NCBI GenBank assembly: GCA_021737275.1
Contig: JAIPEE010000019.1
Location: 1 to 64,000 of the forward strand
Source of the DNA: Desulfobacterales bacterium
Lineage (GTDB): Bacteria > Desulfobacterota > Desulfobacteria > Desulfobacterales > JAIPEE01
Direction: 5' to 3'
Length of the DNA: 64,000 nt
This document shows positions 14,661 through 28,926 of this stretch, piece after piece. The notes beneath the pieces are model-generated. The model saw nothing but the letters and a program-made list of their open reading frames with translations, did not search any database and was not told the DNA's origin. The position numbers and the translations under genes were made by a program. Numbering within the stretch: the stretch's first letter is position 1; each line of letters opens with the position of its first letter.

Positions 14661-16241
14661 ATGCACGTTACCTTTTACGGCGCTATTCGCGAAGTTACCG
14701 GCTCCATGCACGTTCTATCAACTGAAACCGACAGAATCCTTTTTGACTGCGGTATGTACCAGGGCCGCCGTAAGGAGGCCAATGAAAAAAATAAAAAATT
14801 TCCAATTGAACCCAAAAGCATAACCAACATGGTGCTTTCCCATGCCCATATTGATCATTCAGGACGTATACCCGTGCTGACCAAAAAGAATTTTCCGGGC
14901 AGAATTTTCTGTACCCGTGCTACGGCGGATGCCAGTGAATATCTGTTGCTGGATTCTGCACATATTCAGGAATCTGACGCTGAATACCTGAACTATAAAA
15001 AAGTTCGTCATACCCTTTCTCAGGCCGGCACGACTGTTAATGGAAAGGTAATCAGTAAACGTGATCTTAAAGATATAAAGGGTCTTCTAAAGCGAAACAG
15101 CTACAGACTGAATTCCGATAAAATTAATGAATTCATTGAGGAGTACGATGTTGACGCTGTCCGTCCCCTTTACACTCAGGAAGATGCGGAAGACGCCCTG
15201 ACACAGTTTGACGGTTACCCTTATCAGCATCCTGTTTCCATTGGCAAGAATATGACCTGTACGTTTTATGATGCAGGGCATATTCTAGGATCTGCCATCA
15301 GCATCGTAAAAGTTAAGGAAAACGGCAGGGAATATAAAATCGGTTATACAGGTGATATCGGACGTTTTGACAAACCGATTCTAAAAAATCCGACGCTTAA
15401 TTTTGCCGAAGAAGATCGGGATCTTGATTTCCTTATCATGGAAAGTACTTACGGAAACCGCCTTCATGAACCTACGGCTGATCTGAAGAACAAGCTCCAT
15501 GACGTTGTTGAGGAAACTGTTGCGCGCGGCGGTACGATAATCATACCGTCCTTTGCATACGGCAGGACCCAGGAGCTTGTCTATGTAATGCATGAGCTTT
15601 ATAATGGCAGTGATATACCGAAAATTCCGGTTTATGTAGACAGCCCGCTGGCGACCAAATTGACAAAGGTTTTTGGTGAACACCCGGAAGTATACGATAA
15701 AGAGACACATGAAACATTTCTAAACCATGGATTGAACCCCTTCTCCTTCAAACAGATCAATTTTGTTAGCTCTGTTGAAGAGTCCATGGCGCTAATGCGT
15801 GATGAAAGGCCCAAAGTCGTCATCTCAGCCTCGGGTATGTGTGAGGCCGGGCGCATTCTTCATCACCTGCGTTGCAAAATTCATAATGAAAAGAATACCA
15901 TACTGATAGTAGGGTTTATGGCCCAGCATACCCTTGGCCGCCGGATCCTTGAAGAAGGCCGTGCATATGAAAAAGCCGGCCGGGTAGGCGATGCGCCCAT
16001 CATGAAAATCATGGGTAAGGAATATCCTCTCAAAGCCCATGTTGTAAAACTTGGCGGCTTCAGTGCCCATGCGGACAAAAATGAAATGCTTCATTTCCTT
16101 AAAGATTCAAATCTTAATATCAAGAAGATTGCCATTGTTCATGGTGAAGAGGATCAGTCCCTTTCGTTTGCAGAAACACTAAATACGGAAGGGTTTGACG
16201 CGTTTGTTCCAACAGAAGGAGAAACAATGGAAATTAATTGA
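14661..16241 (+). CDS. MBL-fold/beta-CASP RNA metallo-hydrolase
   Basis: SHAHIDHSGRIP metal motif; beta-CASP motifs VISASGMCEAGRILHHL and GGFSAHADKNEM. Confidence 0.9.
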   Translation: MHVTFYGAIREVTGSMHVLSTETDRILFDCGMYQGRRKEANEKNKKFPIEPKSITNMVLSHAHIDHSGRIPVLTKKNFPGRIFCTRATADASEYLLLDSAHIQESDAEYLNYKKVRHTLSQAGTTVNGKVISKRDLKDIKGLLKRNSYRLNSDKINEFIEEYDVDAVRPLYTQEDAEDALTQFDGYPYQHPVSIGKNMTCTFYDAGHILGSAISIVKVKENGREYKIGYTGDIGRFDKPILKNPTLNFAEEDRDLDFLIMESTYGNRLHEPTADLKNKLHDVVEETVARGGTIIIPSFAYGRTQELVYVMHELYNGSDIPKIPVYVDSPLATKLTKVFGEHPEVYDKETHETFLNHGLNPFSFKQINFVSSVEESMALMRDERPKVVISASGMCEAGRILHHLRCKIHNEKNTILIVGFMAQHTLGRRILEEGRAYEKAGRVGDAPIMKIMGKEYPLKAHVVKLGGFSAHADKNEMLHFLKDSNLNIKKIAIVHGEEDQSLSFAETLNTEGFDAFVPTEGETMEIN

Positions 16242-16950
16242 GTTCAAACCGTATCGGCACATAAACCCGGGTTTCAATCGGGATATTTCCCCGTTGCCCG
16301 GGTTCAAACAGCCACCGCTTGACCGTTTTCAGAGCGGCCTGATCCAAAACACGGTGTCCGCTTGAAGTATGAACTTTCATGTCGGAAGGACGACCCTTAA
16401 CGTCCACCAGAACATCAAGAACAACCACGCCCTGATAGCCTCTTTTTCTGGCCGGCTGAGGATATTCGGGCTTTGGATTACTGATGTAAAGTGGTGTTGC
16501 CTCTTTAATGACTGCCTGTGAGTTAATAACATCAACAGCTTCAACCGGCTCTGAAAAAGATTCCGCTTCAGCCTGAATCTGTGGTTCGGATTGATCCGGT
16601 TTAGCTTCAGGCTCAGAAACCTTTTTATCTTCAACTGCCTCCTGCACCATTACCGGCTCAACAGGTTTTTTTTCAGGCTCCTCTTTTTTTACAGTTTCAT
16701 CAGGCTTTGGGATCTCTATTGGCTCCGGCTTTTTTACCGGTTTTTTCTCAATTTTTTTTTCAATCGGCACCGCCGGTTTTTGAATGACAGCCTGTTTTGG
16801 TTTATCCGGTTTTTTATATACCATGGTAACCGATACCGGTTGGGGGGTGAGCCGGACCGGTTTTATTTTACCGCCCCAGTCCGGGTTCAGTAACAGCAAT
16901 ACAGCATGCAGCAACAGTGCTAAAATAATGGCAGACCCCAGGCGTTTCAT
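16234..16950 (-). CDS. tonB: TonB energy-transducing protein
   Basis: N-terminal TM, Pro/Lys-rich linker, C-terminal YPQPARKRGYQGVVVLDVLVDVKGRP...VKRWLFEPG TonB_C domain. Confidence 0.9.
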   Translation of the reverse strand: MKRLGSAIILALLLHAVLLLLNPDWGGKIKPVRLTPQPVSVTMVYKKPDKPKQAVIQKPAVPIEKKIEKKPVKKPEPIEIPKPDETVKKEEPEKKPVEPVMVQEAVEDKKVSEPEAKPDQSEPQIQAEAESFSEPVEAVDVINSQAVIKEATPLYISNPKPEYPQPARKRGYQGVVVLDVLVDVKGRPSDMKVHTSSGHRVLDQAALKTVKRWLFEPGQRGNIPIETRVYVPIRFELN

Positions 16951-16955
16951 TGGTC

Positions 16956-17357
16956 TTATTCGGCCTCTGCCTGCATGGAGATTCTTGAAATACCGGCCTT
17001 TCGGATCTCATCCATAACCTGAAAAAGTGTCTGGTAGGGCAAGTCACGGTCACCGAATAAAAGCACGCCGGGGTCATCGGAGCCCGAGGCTCTTTGCTGT
17101 AAAACGGAAAACAGATCAGAAAGGTCCACCTCTTCCTTTTCCACAAAAATACGTCCACCGGCTTTTACGGAAACAGATAGTTCAAGCCGTTTATCAATTT
17201 TTGCGGTATCAGAAGTCGGAAGTACAACCGTAATGCCCCGGTGAACAGCCATGGACAGCATAGAGTAGATAAAGAAAACAAGCAGCAGAAAAACGATGTC
17301 TATAAGCGGCAGCATCTCAATGCGAACTTTTCTGCCTCTCTTCATATTGACCTTCAT
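16956..17357 (-). CDS. exbD: ExbD/TolR biopolymer transport protein
   Basis: MLPLIDIVFLLLVFFIYSML single TM with conserved Asp; adjacent to tonB and exbB. Confidence 0.9.
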   Translation of the reverse strand: MKVNMKRGRKVRIEMLPLIDIVFLLLVFFIYSMLSMAVHRGITVVLPTSDTAKIDKRLELSVSVKAGGRIFVEKEEVDLSDLFSVLQQRASGSDDPGVLLFGDRDLPYQTLFQVMDEIRKAGISRISMQAEAE

Positions 17358-17359
17358 TT

Positions 17360-17986
17360 TTAAACAGCTCCCTCCCCATTTTCATTGCTGACCAATTTTT
17401 CATATACAATTTCAAGACTGGTTGCATATTTTTCAACAGCAAGGCCGGCAGATTCAACTCGTGAGTTAAAATAGTTAAACGGAAACACACTTAATATGGC
17501 AATGCCCAGCCCGGAAGCTGTTGTAATCAGAGCCTGTGCAATGCCGACAGTAACCGTTTCAGGTTGCTCAATTCCTGATACGCCCAGCATTTCAAAGGAC
17601 ATAATAATGCCGATAACGGTGCCAAAGATACCCAGCAGCGGCGCAACGGTGATCATGGTATCAATGACATTCATATACCGCTGCATTCGCCTGATCTCTT
17701 CGGCTGCAGCGGCCTCCATTGCTTTGGCCATGGAGAACTCCCTGTGAAGGATACCGCTGATCAAAATTTTAACAATATAATCCTGGGATCCTTTGGTTTT
17801 CCGGCGAATTTCTTCCCATGAACCTGAACGACTGAGATCCATTACCTCATCCACCAGTTTTTGGTTCCGCTGCGAACCCAGCCGAACCCAGAACATTATC
17901 CGCTCGATAATAACGGCCACTACAATAATGGAACAGATCAGCAGGGGATACATAACCGGTCCGCCGCTTAAAAATATATTCAACAT
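17360..17986 (-). CDS. exbB: MotA/TolQ/ExbB proton channel protein
   Basis: APLLGIFGTVIGIIMSFEML...AQALITTASGLGIAI signature. Confidence 0.9.
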   Translation of the reverse strand: MLNIFLSGGPVMYPLLICSIIVVAVIIERIMFWVRLGSQRNQKLVDEVMDLSRSGSWEEIRRKTKGSQDYIVKILISGILHREFSMAKAMEAAAAEEIRRMQRYMNVIDTMITVAPLLGIFGTVIGIIMSFEMLGVSGIEQPETVTVGIAQALITTASGLGIAILSVFPFNYFNSRVESAGLAVEKYATSLEIVYEKLVSNENGEGAV

Positions 17987-18042: not shown

Positions 18043-18846
18043 TTATCCACCGGTTTTTGCGAATTTTTCCGGGACCAGCGTAATTCTGGGATATTCTCCC
18101 AGGGGGCTTTGGTCAACCAGCAGCCGGCATCCATAAGTCTCTTCCAGTATTTCATAGTTTATTACATCGGCCGGTTTTCCTTTTTTTACAATCCGGCCTT
18201 CTTTTAAAAGAAGTAATCCGTCGCCATACATGGCTGCCATGTTGATATCATGGGAAACCATAATGATCGTAATATCTTTTTCTTTCTTTAACTGCTCCAT
18301 CAGATCCATGACGCGCAACTGGTGGGCCAGATCCAGGGCAGACGTGGGTTCATCCAGTAAAATGATCTTCGGCTCCTGGCAGATGGCCCGGGCAATAAAG
18401 ACCCGCTGACGTTCTCCGCCGCTCAGTTGAGAAATTTTTCGATCCGCAAGGTGGCCGACTTCTGTAAATTTCATGGCCTGGCTGGCAATATCAATATCAT
18501 GTTTCTGATCCAGCCCCAACACACCCATATGGGGTGACCGCCCCATCAGCACCACCTCGGTAACTGTAAAAGGAAAATCAGACATTACATTCTGAGAAAC
18601 CATGGCCATTTTCCGGGCAAGATCCTTTCGTGAAAAGTGATGCATCGGCTTGTCCAGTATTGTTACACCATTTCCAGGCACTTTTTCCATGCCGGACATG
18701 CACTTCAACAACGTTGTCTTTCCGGAACCATTGGGGCCGATGATAACAAAAAAGCTGCCCTCGGGAACAGAAAATGTTACATCTGTAAGGACGCTTACAT
18801 TTCCGTATGCATGATTTAAGTTATTTACTTCAATCGCTTTTTTCAT
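18043..18846 (-). CDS. btuD: Corrinoid/Fe-siderophore-family ABC transporter ATP-binding protein
   Basis: Walker A GPNGSGKTT, signature LSGGERQRVFIAR, Walker B IILLDEPTSALD; operon context with riboswitch. Confidence 0.9.
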   Translation of the reverse strand: MKKAIEVNNLNHAYGNVSVLTDVTFSVPEGSFFVIIGPNGSGKTTLLKCMSGMEKVPGNGVTILDKPMHHFSRKDLARKMAMVSQNVMSDFPFTVTEVVLMGRSPHMGVLGLDQKHDIDIASQAMKFTEVGHLADRKISQLSGGERQRVFIARAICQEPKIILLDEPTSALDLAHQLRVMDLMEQLKKEKDITIIMVSHDINMAAMYGDGLLLLKEGRIVKKGKPADVINYEILEETYGCRLLVDQSPLGEYPRITLVPEKFAKTGG

Positions 18847-19853
18847 TGTTTCGACTTCATCAGCAGATAAATAAACAGCGGCACGCCTATCATCGCTGTA
18901 ATGACACCCACCGGCAATTCTCCATGGCGGGACAGAACACGCGCCAGCAGATCACATAAAACCATATAGGATGCGCCACCCAGTATACAGGCCGGCACCA
19001 GAACACGATGATCCGGTCCGAATATCATTCTCAGCATATGCGGTATAATTAACCCCACAAAACCCAAAAGCCCGCACTGAGATACGGTGGCACTAACCAT
19101 AAAGGAGGTTACAATCAGGAGCGTATAGGTTACAACCTTGATATGAACGCCCATACTCATGGCCATCTCACTGCCCATCAAAAGCAGGTTCATGTCATGG
19201 GACAACCGGAACATAAGAATAAAGCAGGGAATCAGCATGGCCGACAATATGCCGACCTGATCCATACCCGCCATGGAAAGATCTCCCATCAGCCAGAAAA
19301 TAATATTGTGAAGGCGCGAGTCCTGAACAAGAGAGACCATGAACATAATGACAGCAGAACAGAAGGCATTGATCATGACACCGGCCAGCAGAAGGGAATC
19401 CTTTTTTAAAACTGAAGCTCCGGAAGACATCATCAGAACAAGAAACAGGGTTCCCATACTTCCTAAAAAAGCGGTAAAGCTTACACCCGGAAAATTGGAC
19501 AACCCCAATAAAATACCCAGAATAGCACCAATGGCTGAACCGCCTGAAACACCTAGAATATAGGGCTCTGCAAGTGGGTTTCTCAAAAGAGCCTGAAATA
19601 CCAAGCCACCAAGGGACAACGTCGCCCCAACAAGAGCTGCCAGTAATGCACGGGGAAACCGGAGGTCCCAAATTATTGTTTTGAGCATACTGTCGGAAGT
19701 ATCTCCGCCCAGCAGTGCCTGAAAAACATTCTTCATATTACCGCCGGCCGCACCAACGGAAATCGCCAGAAAAATACTGATGATCAGTATCAACATCAGA
19801 AACAGGCTGATCAATGTCATCCGCCTGATTACATGCGGCTGCCGTACTGTCAT
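18843..19853 (-). CDS. btuC: FecCD-family ABC transporter permease (BtuC-like)
   Basis: LRFPRALLAALVGATLSLGGLVFQALLRNPLAEPYILGVSGG signature; 4-nt overlaps with both neighbours. Confidence 0.9.
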   Translation of the reverse strand: MTVRQPHVIRRMTLISLFLMLILIISIFLAISVGAAGGNMKNVFQALLGGDTSDSMLKTIIWDLRFPRALLAALVGATLSLGGLVFQALLRNPLAEPYILGVSGGSAIGAILGILLGLSNFPGVSFTAFLGSMGTLFLVLMMSSGASVLKKDSLLLAGVMINAFCSAVIMFMVSLVQDSRLHNIIFWLMGDLSMAGMDQVGILSAMLIPCFILMFRLSHDMNLLLMGSEMAMSMGVHIKVVTYTLLIVTSFMVSATVSQCGLLGFVGLIIPHMLRMIFGPDHRVLVPACILGGASYMVLCDLLARVLSRHGELPVGVITAMIGVPLFIYLLMKSKQ

Positions 19854-20755
19854 TGAACACCCCCGAAAAGTTCCGGATGAATTATTTTCGCCAGTACTTC
19901 AAGGCCGTCCACCAGCCGTGGTGTGGCGCGGTCAAAAAAATCAGAATTCACAAGATGAATCCGGTTATTTTTAATGGCAGGCATATCCGGCCAGCGTTGC
20001 CACTCGGCCTTTACCTGTTCAAATGCACCGCCCCTGGCCATTGATGTGATAATAAATATTTCGGGCGCCAGCCTCAGTACCTGCTCCCTGCTGTATCGCG
20101 GGTAGGCAATCGGTCCTGCGGTTAAATTATAGCCACCTGCCATTGTAATTAACTCATGAATAAAGGTATCATTTCCTATCGCAACAATCGGGGCAATGCC
20201 GATCTGGAAAAAGACCTTGGGTCGCGTGCTTGAACCACTAACAGCTGTTTTTACCTGGCTGATTCGAGCCTGCATATCATCTACCAGTTTTTTTGCATTG
20301 TCACTGGTATCCAGAACATCCCCTATTTCAATAATGGATGTCATCACCGCTTCTAAATCTCTCGGATCCACTGCATAAACCGGGATATCCAGCTTCTCCA
20401 GAAAACTGACAACCTCAATGGGATTGCCATCCTTAACGGCAATACAAAGATCCGGTTTCAGGGCGACAATCTTTTCAATATTCAGATGAACGTAAGATCC
20501 TACTTTGGGAAGTTTTTGTGCTTCAGAAGGAAAATCACTGAACATGGTAACACCCACCAGTCGATGGCTTTGTTCCAGAGCAAAAATGACTTCTGTAATA
20601 CTGGGCGCCAGCGAAATAATGCGTTTTGCATGCACAGGAATGCGAACTGTTCTGCCCAGATGGTCGGTCACAGTTTTAGTATCTGCGCTCAAAACCCCCG
20701 GAAGGTATAAAACCAGATATAATAACAGTACAATTTTTTGAAACCGTTTTCTCAT
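19850..20755 (-). CDS. btuF: Corrinoid ABC transporter substrate-binding protein (BtuF-like)
   Basis: Signal peptide; VTDHLGRTVRIPVHAKRIISLAPSITEVIFALEQSHRLVGVT; directly downstream of a cobalamin riboswitch. Confidence 0.9.
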   Translation of the reverse strand: MRKRFQKIVLLLYLVLYLPGVLSADTKTVTDHLGRTVRIPVHAKRIISLAPSITEVIFALEQSHRLVGVTMFSDFPSEAQKLPKVGSYVHLNIEKIVALKPDLCIAVKDGNPIEVVSFLEKLDIPVYAVDPRDLEAVMTSIIEIGDVLDTSDNAKKLVDDMQARISQVKTAVSGSSTRPKVFFQIGIAPIVAIGNDTFIHELITMAGGYNLTAGPIAYPRYSREQVLRLAPEIFIITSMARGGAFEQVKAEWQRWPDMPAIKNNRIHLVNSDFFDRATPRLVDGLEVLAKIIHPELFGGVQ

Positions 20756-20789: not shown

Positions 20790-20849
20790 GATTCCTTAAT
20801 TATATATCCTCAAATACGAAGGCAAATGATCAGCTACGCAACTTTGTCT

Positions 20850-21042
20850 TCCTGCTCAGGCAGGTCTTCTGACTCCCTTATTCTACTGACGGCCTTCCCA
20901 TTTAATCATTTGAAATAGTGGCACAAGTTTGTCAGCAAAACCCCCCGATATATATTATCAGGGTCAGGTTACAGCGGCGGGCCCGTCTCCGATTTTCACG
21001 GTGTTCCCTATTACGCCTTTTTTAAGGCACCTGAACAATTTA
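20850..21042 (-). promoter_or_regulatory. Cobalamin riboswitch controlling the btuF-btuC-btuD-exbBD-tonB operon
   Basis: Minus strand contains CAGGTGCC...AATAGGGAACACCGTGAAAATCGGAGACGGGCCCGCCGCTGTAA and B12 box AGTCAGAAGACCTGCCTG (about 20858-20876). Confidence 0.93.
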
Positions 21043-21049
21043 TTATGAT

Positions 21050-21185: not shown

Positions 21186-21214
21186 TTGACATCCAAAAAT
21201 GATTCTAATATGCA
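21186..21214 (+). promoter_or_regulatory. Candidate sigma70 promoter for the btuB riboswitch leader
   Basis: TTGACA - 17 nt - TATGCA just upstream of the riboswitch. Confidence 0.5.
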
Positions 21215-21224
21215 ACAGTAAAAA

Positions 21225-21410
21225 CGTTCTGGTGCTTCATTGAAGCTTAGTAGGGAACTCCGTGAAAATCGGAGACGAGCCCGTCGCTGTAATCGGGGAC
21301 GAACGTCGCATTAAAGCCACTGAACTGCCTGAGGCGGATTGGGAAGGCGCGACAAGTAGAATGATCCATAAGTCAGAAAACCTGCCTGAACGGGATAGCA
21401 TCGTATCCCA
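21225..21410 (+). promoter_or_regulatory. Cobalamin riboswitch controlling btuB
   Basis: GGTGCTTC...TAGGGAACTCCGTGAAAATCGGAGACGAGCCCGTCGCTGTAAT...GCCACTG...GGGAAGGCG...AGTCAGAAAACCTGCCTG (B12 box 21370-21388). Confidence 0.95.
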
Positions 21411-21456: not shown

Positions 21457-21492
21457 CCCGGGTCGATTGATAATCGGTCCGGGATTTTTTTT
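21457..21492 (+). terminator. Riboswitch expression-platform terminator before btuB
   Basis: CCCGGGTCGAT-tgata-ATCGGTCCGGG (11 pairs including two GU) followed by A and T8. Confidence 0.85.
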
Positions 21493-21530: not shown

Positions 21531-23606
21531 ATGAGGAAAGGTTTAATTTATTGGATGGTTCTGGCAATCACCTTATGCCTGCCGGTGGTTTCCAGTGCAG
21601 AAGAAGACAAACATGAAGCGCCGGTTGTTACAACGATGGAAGAAGTGCTGGTAAGTGCAACAAAAACAGAAGAGCAGCGTAAAGACATCCCCAACAGTGT
21701 CATTTTAGTTGACCGGTATGATATCCAGGAGTCACCAGCCAAAACAGTTGGTGAGTTGTTGGGCAATGAACTGGGTATCGACTGGCGCACTTATGGAAAC
21801 TATGGCGGCGCTTCAGAAGAAATTAAAATACGAGGTATGTCCAGTGACGGCACACAGGTACTGGTCAATGGCGTCAGCAGGTTGTCACCGTCTTTAGGCA
21901 TAGCCAATGTAGCAGAAATTCCGCTCAATAGTATTGAACGCATTGAAATCGTTAAAGGCTCCGGTTCCCTTCTTTATGGGTCCGGCGCAATGGGCGGTAC
22001 AATCAATATTATCACAAAGCGGCCGGCAAATGATAAAATTGATGCAAAAGCAACGGCCGGTTACGGTAGCGAAAGCACATATCTGCTTTCGGCAGAACAG
22101 GGTATGAATGTCATTGAGGACCTCGGTTACTATATTACGGCTAACAAAAAGGAAACCGATGGATTCAGAGACAATGGTGACCTGACGCATAATGATGTCT
22201 CCCTTAATCTGGTTCTGGATAAAGATGACGTTCTTGATATCAGCCTCTACGGTGAATATGTAAACCGTGAATTTGGCCAGCCCGGTGTTCAACCGCCGGA
22301 AGGGACACAGGACTATTATGTAAAAAATGAAATATTCTATAACAGCGAGTCGGCCAGCCTGCTTAATCGTCATGAAGATACAAACAAGATGGCTGTGTTG
22401 AATGTAAAAAGCAATCCGCTGGACTGGCTCGGATTGAGTTTGAAGGGCGACTATACTTCTCTTGAAAGTTATAACTATATGCGAAATGCTGGCGCAAGTT
22501 GGCCCAAGGTTGCAGGAGAGGGCTATGAAACGTGGATTATCAATGATATTGCCGGTATTGAAGGTTTTTTTACGTTAACGCCCCACTCCAGCACTGAAAT
22601 CCTTCTGGGAATGGACTACAATGACTATGGTTATGAAAACAGACAGGGTGATATTGATGCATCCGGAAATGCTGTCGCAGGCACAATAGCCACTGAAGAA
22701 CATAAGGTACACACAAATGGTTCTTTTGCTGAAGCACAATACCGGCCCAGCCGGTATATAAAATTTTTGGCCGGTATTCGCCATGAAAGCCATTCCACAT
22801 TCGGGTCCGAGGATCTGCCCCGTTTTGGATTAATCCTCAATCCGTTTGAGCACACTGCCCTGAAGTTCAGCCATGGAAAACACTTCAAGGCACCTACAAT
22901 GAATGATCTGTTCTGGCCGGATGATGGCTGGACCCGGGGTAATCCAGACCTTAAAGCTGAAACAGGCTGGCACTCTGATGTTACACTGGAGCAGAGTCTT
23001 TTAAGTGATAAGCTGTTCTTTGAAGCAACATATTTTGACTGGGACATTAAGGATAAAATTAACTGGGCTGAAAATCCTGCCTTTCCTACTCCAGTCCCGG
23101 GTTTCAACTACTGGACACCATCAAATGTTGATACATATGAAGCTCAGGGTTGTGAGATTGGGGCACGCATCAAACCCATTCATAATACCATACTCTCTCT
23201 GAGTTATACTTATACAGATGCAACGGAAGAGCTCTCCGGCGGGACAGTAAGACAAGCTCAATATACGGCCAGGCATCTTTTCAAGGGAGATATCTCTTAC
23301 TGGTTTGATTTTGGGCTTACAGCAACCTTTATAGGCAGATATGTGGGATCCCGACCGGCATTTTATAATACTGCCCAGGATGAATTTGCTTCTTATATTC
23401 TGGATTCCTACTGGACGGCTGATCTTAAACTTGAGCAGAGACTTTATGACAAATGGCTGATTGGATTACAGGGTACCAACCTGTTTGACACAGGATATTA
23501 TACACGACTTTCAAACTTCCAGGATCAAACCTCCGGCCTGATTACCAGAGAAGGTTTTCCCGGTGCAGAGCGTGCTGTATTTTGCAGCCTGACTTATGAA
23601 TATTGA
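21531..23606 (+). CDS. btuB: TonB-dependent outer-membrane receptor, corrinoid (BtuB-like)
   Basis: TonB box/plug (MEEVLVSATKTEEQRKDIPNSVILVD, IRGMSSDGTQVLVNGV, GSGSLLYGSGAMGGTINIITK); riboswitch control. Confidence 0.92.
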   Translation: MRKGLIYWMVLAITLCLPVVSSAEEDKHEAPVVTTMEEVLVSATKTEEQRKDIPNSVILVDRYDIQESPAKTVGELLGNELGIDWRTYGNYGGASEEIKIRGMSSDGTQVLVNGVSRLSPSLGIANVAEIPLNSIERIEIVKGSGSLLYGSGAMGGTINIITKRPANDKIDAKATAGYGSESTYLLSAEQGMNVIEDLGYYITANKKETDGFRDNGDLTHNDVSLNLVLDKDDVLDISLYGEYVNREFGQPGVQPPEGTQDYYVKNEIFYNSESASLLNRHEDTNKMAVLNVKSNPLDWLGLSLKGDYTSLESYNYMRNAGASWPKVAGEGYETWIINDIAGIEGFFTLTPHSSTEILLGMDYNDYGYENRQGDIDASGNAVAGTIATEEHKVHTNGSFAEAQYRPSRYIKFLAGIRHESHSTFGSEDLPRFGLILNPFEHTALKFSHGKHFKAPTMNDLFWPDDGWTRGNPDLKAETGWHSDVTLEQSLLSDKLFFEATYFDWDIKDKINWAENPAFPTPVPGFNYWTPSNVDTYEAQGCEIGARIKPIHNTILSLSYTYTDATEELSGGTVRQAQYTARHLFKGDISYWFDFGLTATFIGRYVGSRPAFYNTAQDEFASYILDSYWTADLKLEQRLYDKWLIGLQGTNLFDTGYYTRLSNFQDQTSGLITREGFPGAERAVFCSLTYEY

Positions 23607-23613
23607 TAAATAA

Positions 23614-23658
23614 GCATAGTGCCCGGCATATAATTGCCGGGCACTATGCCAATTTTTT
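23614..23658 (+). terminator. Intrinsic terminator after btuB
   Basis: Perfect 14-bp stem GCATAGTGCCCGGC / GCCGGGCACTATGC, 8-nt loop, then CAATTTTTT. Confidence 0.85.
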
Positions 23659-23684: not shown

Positions 23685-25736
23685 ATGATTTTTTTTAATA
23701 GCTACCGGATTGGAAATATTATATCTGACCGCAGATACCTTTTAACCGTTATCTGTTTTTTCTGTTTTCTGAGTTTTATGACGCAACCGGCAATAGCCGG
23801 TCTCTATCCTTTGTCATTTACTGATGATGAAGGTCATCAGGTAGTTATCAAAAAACGTCCTGAAAATGCTGTTTCGCTGGTACCGTCTGTTACAGAAATA
23901 ATTTTTAAGCTGGGTGCAGCTGATGCAGTAAGTGGGATTACCTATCATAGCAGCCGGCTGCCCGGTGCTGATAAAAAGCAGATTGTCGGCGGTTTTTTCT
24001 CACCGGCTCTCGATAAAATTGATGCGCTTCAACCGGATGTTATTTTTGTATCTGATCTCAACAGTCAAAAAGTCCATCAGTATTTTGGGAATAAGTATTT
24101 AATTATTACTATCAATACGACCTCAATTGCCGATAGCTTTAACGATATCCTTTTGTTGGGAAAAGTCTTTGACCGGCAGATAGCAGCCACATCAATTATA
24201 AAGGAAAATCAACAAGCACTTGATCTGATTTCCAGAAAGGTCCCCGGCTTAAAAGATAGAAAACGGGTTATCAGGCTTATGGGCCGAAATGAAATCATGA
24301 CACCCGGACTGGATTCGTTTCAGAATGAATTGATTAAAGCCGCCGGTGGTATTCCTCATAACATTAATAAAAATGGAAATGTTATATCCATCTCCCTTGA
24401 GGAGTGGCTGCGGTTCAATCCGGAAATTATCTATGGTTGCGGCGATGATCGTGATGCAGCTGAACTTTTTTTCAACCAGTCCGGTTGGAAAGATGTAGAT
24501 GCAGTAAAAAATCATCAGATCTATTACTTCTCGTGTGACCTGACCTGCCGGGCCGCAACCCATACCGGATATTTTGTTTCCTGGCTGGCGGCCAATATTT
24601 ACCCTGAAGTTTTTTCTGAAAAAAGCAGACAGGTTCTGGACGAAAAAATCACCCATGAGCGGCCTATCAATATTGATCTTGACTATGTCAAAAATGCCCG
24701 AATTACTTACAGCAATATTTATGACTTCCCCAACAAAACCCTGATTGTGGATTTTGAAAAACCCATGGCAATTGTCTCAACACTGGAAGGACAGCGAGAA
24801 GGAATTAAAACCATCGGCAATCATTACTCTTCACCGCCCTGCTGGATGATTGAACATGTTCAGGGATTTGACAAATCAAGAAAACGGATGCTCCGGGTTA
24901 TGGGTAAGTCATCTGAAGATTCGAGTTTTCTTTATACCGGAGCAGATATGGACAACCTGTCGATCCGGAAACAGCAATATAAAGACATGACGGTTTATGC
25001 GCTGGTTACGGCCGGTGTTCAGTCCAATGCCGTCAGAATGTCTTGTGACGTTGGCGGATATTATGAACCGGGGACAATTAATATTATCATTTTACCCAAC
25101 ATGAAGCTTTCAAAAAGAGCCATGACCCGTGCCATCATATCGGCGACCGAAGCCAAAACTGCTGCGATGACGGATCTGGATATCCGGAGTACATATACGC
25201 CGCTTAAAAATCAAGCCACCGGAACCGGCACAGATAACTTGATCATTGCAGAGGGCACCGGAACACAACTGGAACTTGCCGGCGGACATTCCAAACTGGG
25301 TGAACTTATCGCAAAAGCGGTTTATGCTGGTGTGCTGGATGCGGTCAGCAAACAAAACGGCCTTGTAAAGGGACGAACGGTTTTTCAGAGGTTGAAGGAA
25401 AGAAACATCACCATATCCGGCATTGTGTCTGAATCGGAATGCGAATGTATAAAAGGTGACAGTGTTGTGGCGGCTGAACTGGAAAACATTCTGTTAATAC
25501 CCCGATATGAAGGTTTTGTTGAATCTGCTCTGATTCTTAGTGATGATTATAAAAGTGGTGCGATCAGCAATCTGGAAACTTTTGAGCAATTATGCAGCAA
25601 TATTACAGATGAAATTGCCGGCAAACCGGTTCATCCGATGGAAGATCTGGTGGGTGATAATATTCAACTCCCACCTGTTTTAAAAATGGCATTTAATGCT
25701 CTGCTGAACGGAGTAAAACAGGCATCCATAGAATAA
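23685..25736 (+). CDS. BtuF-like corrinoid-binding domain fused to CbiZ-type adenosylcobinamide amidohydrolase domain
   Basis: N-terminal signal peptide and VVIKKRPENAVSLVPSVTEIIFKLG (BtuF-like); C-terminal VTAGVQSNAVRMS, GTINIIILPN, SATEAKTAAMTDLDIRS, ATGTGTDNLIIAEG, GGHSKLGELIAKAVY (CbiZ). Confidence 0.85.
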   Translation: MIFFNSYRIGNIISDRRYLLTVICFFCFLSFMTQPAIAGLYPLSFTDDEGHQVVIKKRPENAVSLVPSVTEIIFKLGAADAVSGITYHSSRLPGADKKQIVGGFFSPALDKIDALQPDVIFVSDLNSQKVHQYFGNKYLIITINTTSIADSFNDILLLGKVFDRQIAATSIIKENQQALDLISRKVPGLKDRKRVIRLMGRNEIMTPGLDSFQNELIKAAGGIPHNINKNGNVISISLEEWLRFNPEIIYGCGDDRDAAELFFNQSGWKDVDAVKNHQIYYFSCDLTCRAATHTGYFVSWLAANIYPEVFSEKSRQVLDEKITHERPINIDLDYVKNARITYSNIYDFPNKTLIVDFEKPMAIVSTLEGQREGIKTIGNHYSSPPCWMIEHVQGFDKSRKRMLRVMGKSSEDSSFLYTGADMDNLSIRKQQYKDMTVYALVTAGVQSNAVRMSCDVGGYYEPGTINIIILPNMKLSKRAMTRAIISATEAKTAAMTDLDIRSTYTPLKNQATGTGTDNLIIAEGTGTQLELAGGHSKLGELIAKAVYAGVLDAVSKQNGLVKGRTVFQRLKERNITISGIVSESECECIKGDSVVAAELENILLIPRYEGFVESALILSDDYKSGAISNLETFEQLCSNITDEIAGKPVHPMEDLVGDNIQLPPVLKMAFNALLNGVKQASIE

Positions 25737-28167: not shown

Positions 28168-28926
28168 TCAGCGATTAAGGCATATCGTCTCAAAGTCCAT
28201 ATACTGTTTCAGGGTCTTTGTTCCACCGCCTTCTGAAATAATTTTCTCCACTGCTGAAGCATCGCGTACCCTGGCCCCGGCAATATGAGTCACCGGTGTC
28301 CCGGAAAAAACTTCCGGTCTCATAAAGGTAGATGGTCCCAGAATTACAGCGGCGCGGACATTCCCTAAACTGGAAAGCAGATTATCAATCGTGTTGGTAA
28401 CTACGGATGTGGCTGTGATTATGGCAACATCGCATACTTCAAGAAATGGTCGTCCCTCATCAGTTGACATGGTGCCGGGCTTGTCATTTTTCAGCTCGAG
28501 GATATCCAGGCGACATCCGACCCGGTGAAGCCTCGGAACCAGGGGACCAAAAAAACCTGCCATAACGACATGCTCAGACGGCTGAATATCAATAAGTTCC
28601 AGAATTTCAACTGAAACGGTTTCCGGACGGGGCATCCCTGCCGCAAGCGCATTGGCCGTAGCAAGGCCTATTGTTCTGAGCAGGGAATTATCGTTGACCG
28701 CTATCATATTAAGGAGTTCCCCTGCCGGTCTTCCGGCAAGCGTTCCGGCTTTCGCCAAATGGATGCAGCCTCCGGATCGTCTGTGAGCCGTCCATGCAAT
28801 GCCTGTGTTTCCGTTATCAAGCCGTACACTTGTATATACCAGTCCGATGCGGACATCAACCGCAGTAAGACCTTCGGAAACAGGGGTCATTAAGCTGATT
28901 GTTTTTTGCTGAATTGTTTGATTCAT
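28168..28926 (-). CDS. DUF4213/DUF364 (putative heavy-metal chelation) protein
   Basis: N-terminal DUF4213-like (GIAWTAHRRSGGC) and C-terminal Rossmann-like DUF364 pattern (DVAIITATSVVTNTIDNLL, VILGPSTFM). Confidence 0.65.
   Translation of the reverse strand: MNQTIQQKTISLMTPVSEGLTAVDVRIGLVYTSVRLDNGNTGIAWTAHRRSGGCIHLAKAGTLAGRPAGELLNMIAVNDNSLLRTIGLATANALAAGMPRPETVSVEILELIDIQPSEHVVMAGFFGPLVPRLHRVGCRLDILELKNDKPGTMSTDEGRPFLEVCDVAIITATSVVTNTIDNLLSSLGNVRAAVILGPSTFMRPEVFSGTPVTHIAGARVRDASAVEKIISEGGGTKTLKQYMDFETICLNR

Follow-up and report, generated by a model that had tools for sequence, protein, structure and literature searches.

A predicted exported BtuF-CbiZ fusion protein at a corrinoid-uptake locus of a Desulfobacterales bacterium, and its relatives in the Desulfobacterota

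The window, i.e., the whole stretch of 64,000 nucleotides that we analyzed, contains corrinoid-uptake genes on both strands (Table 1). On the plus strand a cobalamin riboswitch precedes btuB and then the gene under study, which encodes a fusion protein, and on the minus strand a second, divergent riboswitch precedes btuF, btuC, btuD, exbB, exbD and tonB; a terminator-like stem lies behind each of the two. The separate stand-alone BtuF that a preliminary description of this DNA had reported is present in the minus-strand set, with BtuF as its best NCBIfam match, at 159 bits against an equivalog cut-off of 234. Between btuB and the fusion gene there is a strong stem-loop, which counts against assuming that the fusion is co-transcribed with the riboswitch operon in the source genome; this stem-loop occurs once in the genome, which rules it out as a dispersed repeat. 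Neither the riboswitches nor the stem-loop appear in the preliminary description. Near the locus, positions 28168-28926 encode a DUF4213/DUF364 "putative heavy-metal chelation" protein.

Table 1. Features of the corrinoid-uptake locus and of the fusion protein, in window positions
Feature	Position	Strand	Basis
BtuF-CbiZ-(CobZ-like) fusion protein, predicted exported, 683 aa	23685..25736	+	ORF, domain matches and recurrence
Predicted Sec-type signal peptide, aa 1-38	23685..23798	+	predicted cleavage between AIA and G; aa 13-33 modelled as helix
BtuF-like putative corrinoid-binding domain, aa 40-315	23802..24629	+	Pfam Peripla_BP_2, aa 63-281
Putative binding-site residues C252, C284-x-L-T-C288-R289, family-specific	24438..24551	+	invariance among fusions
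CbiZ domain, aa 357-550	24753..25334	+	Pfam and invariant residues
ATGTGTD motif, aa 511-517, CbiZ-invariant	25215..25235	+	alignment
C-terminal degenerate CobZ/PgpA-like domain (putative), aa 560-683	25362..25733	+	CbiS profile, hhalign
Cobalamin riboswitch upstream of btuB and fusion	21213..21403	+	Rfam RF00174, 107.2 bits
Terminator-like stem behind plus-strand riboswitch (expression platform)	21457..21483	+	
BtuB-like TonB-dependent outer-membrane receptor	21531..23606	+	profile matches
Strong stem-loop between btuB and fusion, near-perfect 15-pair palindrome	23614..23649	+	single genome copy
Second, divergent cobalamin riboswitch upstream of btuF	20842..21049	-	Rfam RF00174, 91.1 bits
Stand-alone BtuF	19850..20755	-	profile matches
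BtuC-type permease	18843..19853	-	profile matches
BtuD-type ATPase	18043..18846	-	profile matches
ExbB-like protein	17360..17986	-	reading of translation
ExbD-like protein	16956..17357	-	reading of translation
TonB-like protein	16234..16950	-	reading of translation

The preliminary description had read the fusion gene as one open reading frame for a signal-peptide-like N-terminus, a BtuF-like domain, a CbiZ-like domain and some 130 further residues, and our analysis recovered the frame and each of these parts. The hydrophobic core of the N-terminus ends at a predicted cleavage site. The N-terminal half matches Peripla_BP_2 (PF01497, E 1.7e-20), and in the full-chain model, a confident one (mean pLDDT 89.2, pTM 0.85, from an alignment of 55 sequences), this first part has the fold of periplasmic binding proteins and matches solved examples, including BtuF of Vibrio cholerae. 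The CbiZ match (PF01955) is strong, with E 6.1e-51 and 173.6 bits against a curated cut-off of 27; all four motifs quoted earlier are present, and this is the sole CbiZ found in the source genome. The residues that follow are real, alpha-helical and conserved across the family.

The taxonomic survey of BtuF-CbiZ fusions that had been suggested shows this to be a widespread conserved family across the phylum, and no isolated oddity. Of 297 genomes sampled from the phylum, 41 have a match spanning both the BtuF and the CbiZ domain, and in a one-per-species collection of 84,980 species the 80 best loci all encode a BtuF-CbiZ fusion, nearly all of them labelled Desulfobacterota or Deltaproteobacteria and some shortened by contig ends. 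Cultured carriers include Desulfonema magnum, Desulfosarcina widdelii, D. alkanivorans, D. cetonica, Desulforhopalus singaporensis and strain NaphS2. An artefact or a chance fusion of reading frames is ruled out, since the three-part architecture recurs, at 40-57% identity, across dozens of species. In the sampled fusions the CbiZ domains group into a single supported clade (99/96). Partners at the 80 loci, many of which lie on short contigs, include BtuB (47/80), BtuC (29/80) and ExbD (29/80). Cobalamin riboswitches were found at all seven relatives' loci of a first scan and, in a later one, at L035, with none found at L048, L105 or L159. In three species the fusion is extended to BtuF-CbiZ-CobZlike-BtuF, with BtuC next to it (L057:5-2782, L068:9726-12605 and L070:17-2704); the second BtuF of these triple fusions shares 70-80% identity with stand-alone transporter BtuFs from other loci, against only about 30% with the fusions' own BtuF domain.

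CbiZ with a signal peptide of its own also occurs as a stand-alone protein in BtuB clusters, i.e., at L118, L121, L122 and L123 (contexts L159-L162) and at L124/L168, the copy in L168 being shortened to 163 aa and apparently internally deleted. Such stand-alone proteins adjoining BtuB occur in four deep-branching lineages, and cobalamin riboswitches are present at four of the five loci. That exported CbiZ as a whole goes back to one origin was neither rejected nor established by the AU test (p = 0.28 with the Dehalococcoides sequence and p = 0.11 without it).

The BtuF domain of the fusions has the fold and family of BtuF, the periplasmic cobalamin-binding protein, with V. cholerae BtuF among the best structural matches, but it differs from stand-alone BtuFs in being joined to an enzyme and in carrying C252, C284, R197 and Q213 in place of their residues. 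Common to the fusions' BtuF domains are R197, M199, Q213, C252, C284 and C288, and the three cysteines are invariant among fusions; of 30 stand-alone BtuFs, none has C252 or C284 and 13 have C288. Because these residues are shared and the first two cysteines are absent from stand-alone BtuFs, the putative corrinoid pocket is, on this comparison, specialized and family-specific. The fusion scores 33.5 bits against the NCBIfam BtuF equivalog cut-off of 234, and it is from the gene neighborhood and the riboswitches that we infer corrinoid binding by this domain.

The last ~125 residues of the fusion gave no direct match in Pfam or the PDB and none to PgpA, and their relationship came out through the CbiS profile and hhalign. 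In most fusions the CbiS profile continues from CbiZ into this C-terminal piece, to position 262-281 of 335 (it covers positions 3-269 in the window fusion), and it ends near 195-197 in the stand-alone exported CbiZ. By hhalign the domain aligns over 119 columns, at E 4.8e-5, with the CobZ part of L120, a CbiS-type protein of the same phylum in which Pfam recognizes CbiZ and, weakly, PgpA; the best E-values of the controls were 0.036 (40 shuffles) and 0.037 (80 decoys). The C-terminal piece thus reads as a degenerate CobZ/PgpA-like domain, which would make the fusion a BtuF joined to a CbiS-like protein, with a CbiS-derived C-terminal half. This half has the same domain order as the bifunctional CbiZ-CobZ protein CbiS, but the fusion scores far below the CbiS cut-off (NF038002; 77.4 bits against 250), and the PgpA-type DExxG motif of the CobZ-like part is mostly lost, with D first in only 2 of 27 domains and E second in 15; L120, for its part, has neither a signal peptide nor a BtuF. 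As part of our best explanation, we propose that the domain is a remnant of the phosphatase (CobZ) half of a protein of the CbiS type. A group of cytoplasmic CbiZ proteins of ~394 aa (L112-L117 and L119) also carries a conserved C-terminal domain, of ~140 aa, which matches nothing in Pfam and does not resemble CobZ; profile comparison gave no support for homology between the two.

Among 37 CbiZ domains, from fusions, from exported, cytoplasmic and CbiS-type proteins and from Dehalococcoides (five kinds in all), 29 positions are invariant or vary in no more than one sequence. All 29 are retained in the window protein, among them ST, N379, T418, TxGxxxNAxR, GTxN, TExK, ATGTGTD and H535, so that the key active-site residues of the family are not lost. 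Such retention, in a family of 40-57% overall identity, is as expected under catalytic constraint. It argues against the idea that the exported CbiZ domain is no longer catalytic and forms with BtuF a larger corrinoid-binding or hand-off module, raising affinity or selectivity for some corrinoids; the strongly specialized BtuF pocket and the degeneration of the adjoining CobZ-like domain, by which enzyme parts of the fusion can evidently be lost, would suit this idea, but we consider it unlikely. In the predicted model of aa 318-683 (pLDDT 89.6), the nearest solved structures to CbiZ are the amide hydrolases NylC, BapA and PH0078, with E down to 3.4e-6 and a TM of only ~0.4; the nearest folds are thus of the NylC/BapA/DmpA class with a weak global fit, and we take the match as a lead for the CbiZ fold and no proof.

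A cluster under riboswitch control in the source genome encodes CbiP, CobU, CobS, CobD, CbiB and CbiR, and CobT lies nearby. In this 96%-complete assembly CbiC, CbiD and CobN were not found, and CbiK gave only a weak partial match. With the enzymes of loop assembly from cobyric acid to cobamide present, the gene content fits a corrinoid salvager able to rebuild the loop from cobyric acid.

At about 14 of the 80 fusion loci, a CobN-type class I chelatase with a signal-peptide-like N-terminus lies directly downstream of the fusion or close to it (for example, L111:12225-16784, L034:4249-8232, L037:3739-7659 and L040:4533-8444, with about ten more loci), often beside DUF2162, ExbB-like and DUF2149 genes, which suggests a periplasmic metal-tetrapyrrole step. 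In addition, CbiK cobaltochelatases with signal-like N-termini adjoin BtuB and an exported CbiZ or the fusion (L160:4475-5356, L162:7378-8346, L094:3183-4154, L081:508-1401 and L111:17966-18850). These neighbors, which the stand-alone exported CbiZ shares, would be consistent with an exported amidohydrolase of another substrate or purpose, e.g., one that serves to obtain cobalt from corrinoids together with the chelatases, or that acts on a different tetrapyrrole or on a metal chelate with an amide linkage. We regard this as improbable, since the cobalamin riboswitches point to corrinoids and the source genome, in which CobN was not found, retains the genes for loop assembly, which would draw on cobyric acid. 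A broader reading, which we hold to be rather doubtful, is an extracytoplasmic dismantling of corrinoids, in which the nucleotide loop would be taken off by an exported CbiZ, either stand-alone or joined to BtuF, and the trimmed ring would be acted on, in many species, by the neighboring exported CobN/CbiK-type chelatases, all before import.

The preliminary description had also placed the hydrolase outside the cytoplasm, and the relatives of the fusion support this. A signal-like hydrophobic stretch, as scored by simple hydropathy and not SignalP, is present in all 77 fusions with an assessable N-terminus, the relatives L028-L030 carry a lipobox, and in the triple fusions CbiZ lies between two BtuF domains; on these grounds the predicted extracytoplasmic location of the fusion is well supported. 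The fusion would thereby depart from the customary cytoplasmic location of CbiZ, which is not part of the family definition, and 12 comparison cytoplasmic-type CbiZ of the same phylum mostly have no signal-like N-terminus. The RR in the N-terminus of the window protein is not conserved among relatives, and we rejected Tat export. That the CbiZ part is cytoplasmic after all, with the hydrophobic N-terminus only an anchor of inverted topology or the true start downstream, would agree with the characterized CbiZ enzymes, which are discussed as cytoplasmic, but is very hard to reconcile with the N-termini and lipoboxes of the relatives, with the position of CbiZ between two periplasmic binding domains in the triple fusions, and with the cytoplasmic-type CbiZ of the same phylum. 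The three points on which the preliminary description could have failed, i.e., the CbiZ profile match, the predicted location and the key active-site residues, all hold.

We think it probable that the fusion serves periplasmic capture of incoming corrinoids and amide cleavage to cobyric acid, followed by import through BtuFCD. Exported by the Sec route, it would work in the periplasm on corrinoids that enter through the BtuB-type receptor; its BtuF domain, with invariant Cys and Arg in the pocket, would hold the corrinoid while the adjoining CbiZ hydrolyses the amide tying the aminopropanol/nucleotide loop to the ring. The stand-alone BtuF would pass the trimmed corrinoid to BtuCD, and cytoplasmic CbiB, CobD, CobU, CobT and CobS would fit it with the loop that the cell itself makes. 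The observations are the architecture, the intact CbiZ residues, the signals for export and the gene context; from these we infer the activity, its substrate and the order of trimming before import. The upper ligand poses the chief difficulty. Most work on CbiZ has used adenosylated corrinoids, and no adenosyltransferase is known in the periplasm, adenosylation being cytoplasmic, so that an exported CbiZ would have to accept other upper ligands. In addition, the source genome encodes CbiR, presumably a remodelling enzyme of the cytoplasm, which makes trimming on the outside seem in part redundant.

The fusion belongs to the same Pfam family as the CbiZ adenosylcobinamide amidohydrolases of Methanosarcina mazei and Rhodobacter sphaeroides, with the same invariant residues and a common theme of corrinoid-transport neighbors, but those are stand-alone proteins. 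In Bacillus, CbiZ is reportedly joined to BtuD, a part of the B12 ABC transporter; there it would sit on the cytoplasmic ATPase and here on the periplasmic binding protein, i.e., on opposite sides of the membrane. According to one report (PMC7733943), the amide that CbiZ cleaves is the one adjoining the aminopropanol linker, the R. sphaeroides enzyme acts on pseudocobalamin and not cobalamin, and a coupling of CbiZ to uptake has been suggested. The same report treats CbiR, the cobamide-remodelling phosphodiesterase of Akkermansia, which like CbiZ starts cobamide remodelling but has an unrelated fold and cuts a different bond. HmuS/BtuS, a CobN-like heme de-chelatase of Bacteroidota (PMC12583661, PMC6460266), is likewise a biosynthesis-type tetrapyrrole enzyme, membrane-anchored, that dismantles an imported tetrapyrrole, but enzyme and cofactor differ and the analogy is one of logic only. 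In the searchable literature, whose coverage does not extend to the primary CbiZ papers (Gray, Woodson, Escalante-Semerena), we found no published exported CbiZ or BtuF-CbiZ fusion.

Which relatives of B12 a bacterium can use depends on cobamide remodelling, a process taken to begin in the cytoplasm. With a conserved, exported CbiZ attached to a capture protein, this first step would move outside the cytoplasm, where unusable lower ligands would be removed before import and one common product, cobyric acid, would become importable from many cobamides; sulfate-reducer-type bacteria may thus trim foreign B12 relatives before taking them up. The fusion makes the suggested link between CbiZ and uptake directly testable, and cultured carriers exist in Desulfosarcina, Desulfonema and Desulforhopalus.

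Elsewhere in the source genome, a riboswitch-preceded pair of genes for a zinc dehydrogenase and a TrpD-type phosphoribosyltransferase lies before CobT (L170:14979-18229), and a pair of similar appearance is found immediately upstream of an exported CbiZ at L161:8648-10752; this pair is possibly involved in lower-ligand handling.
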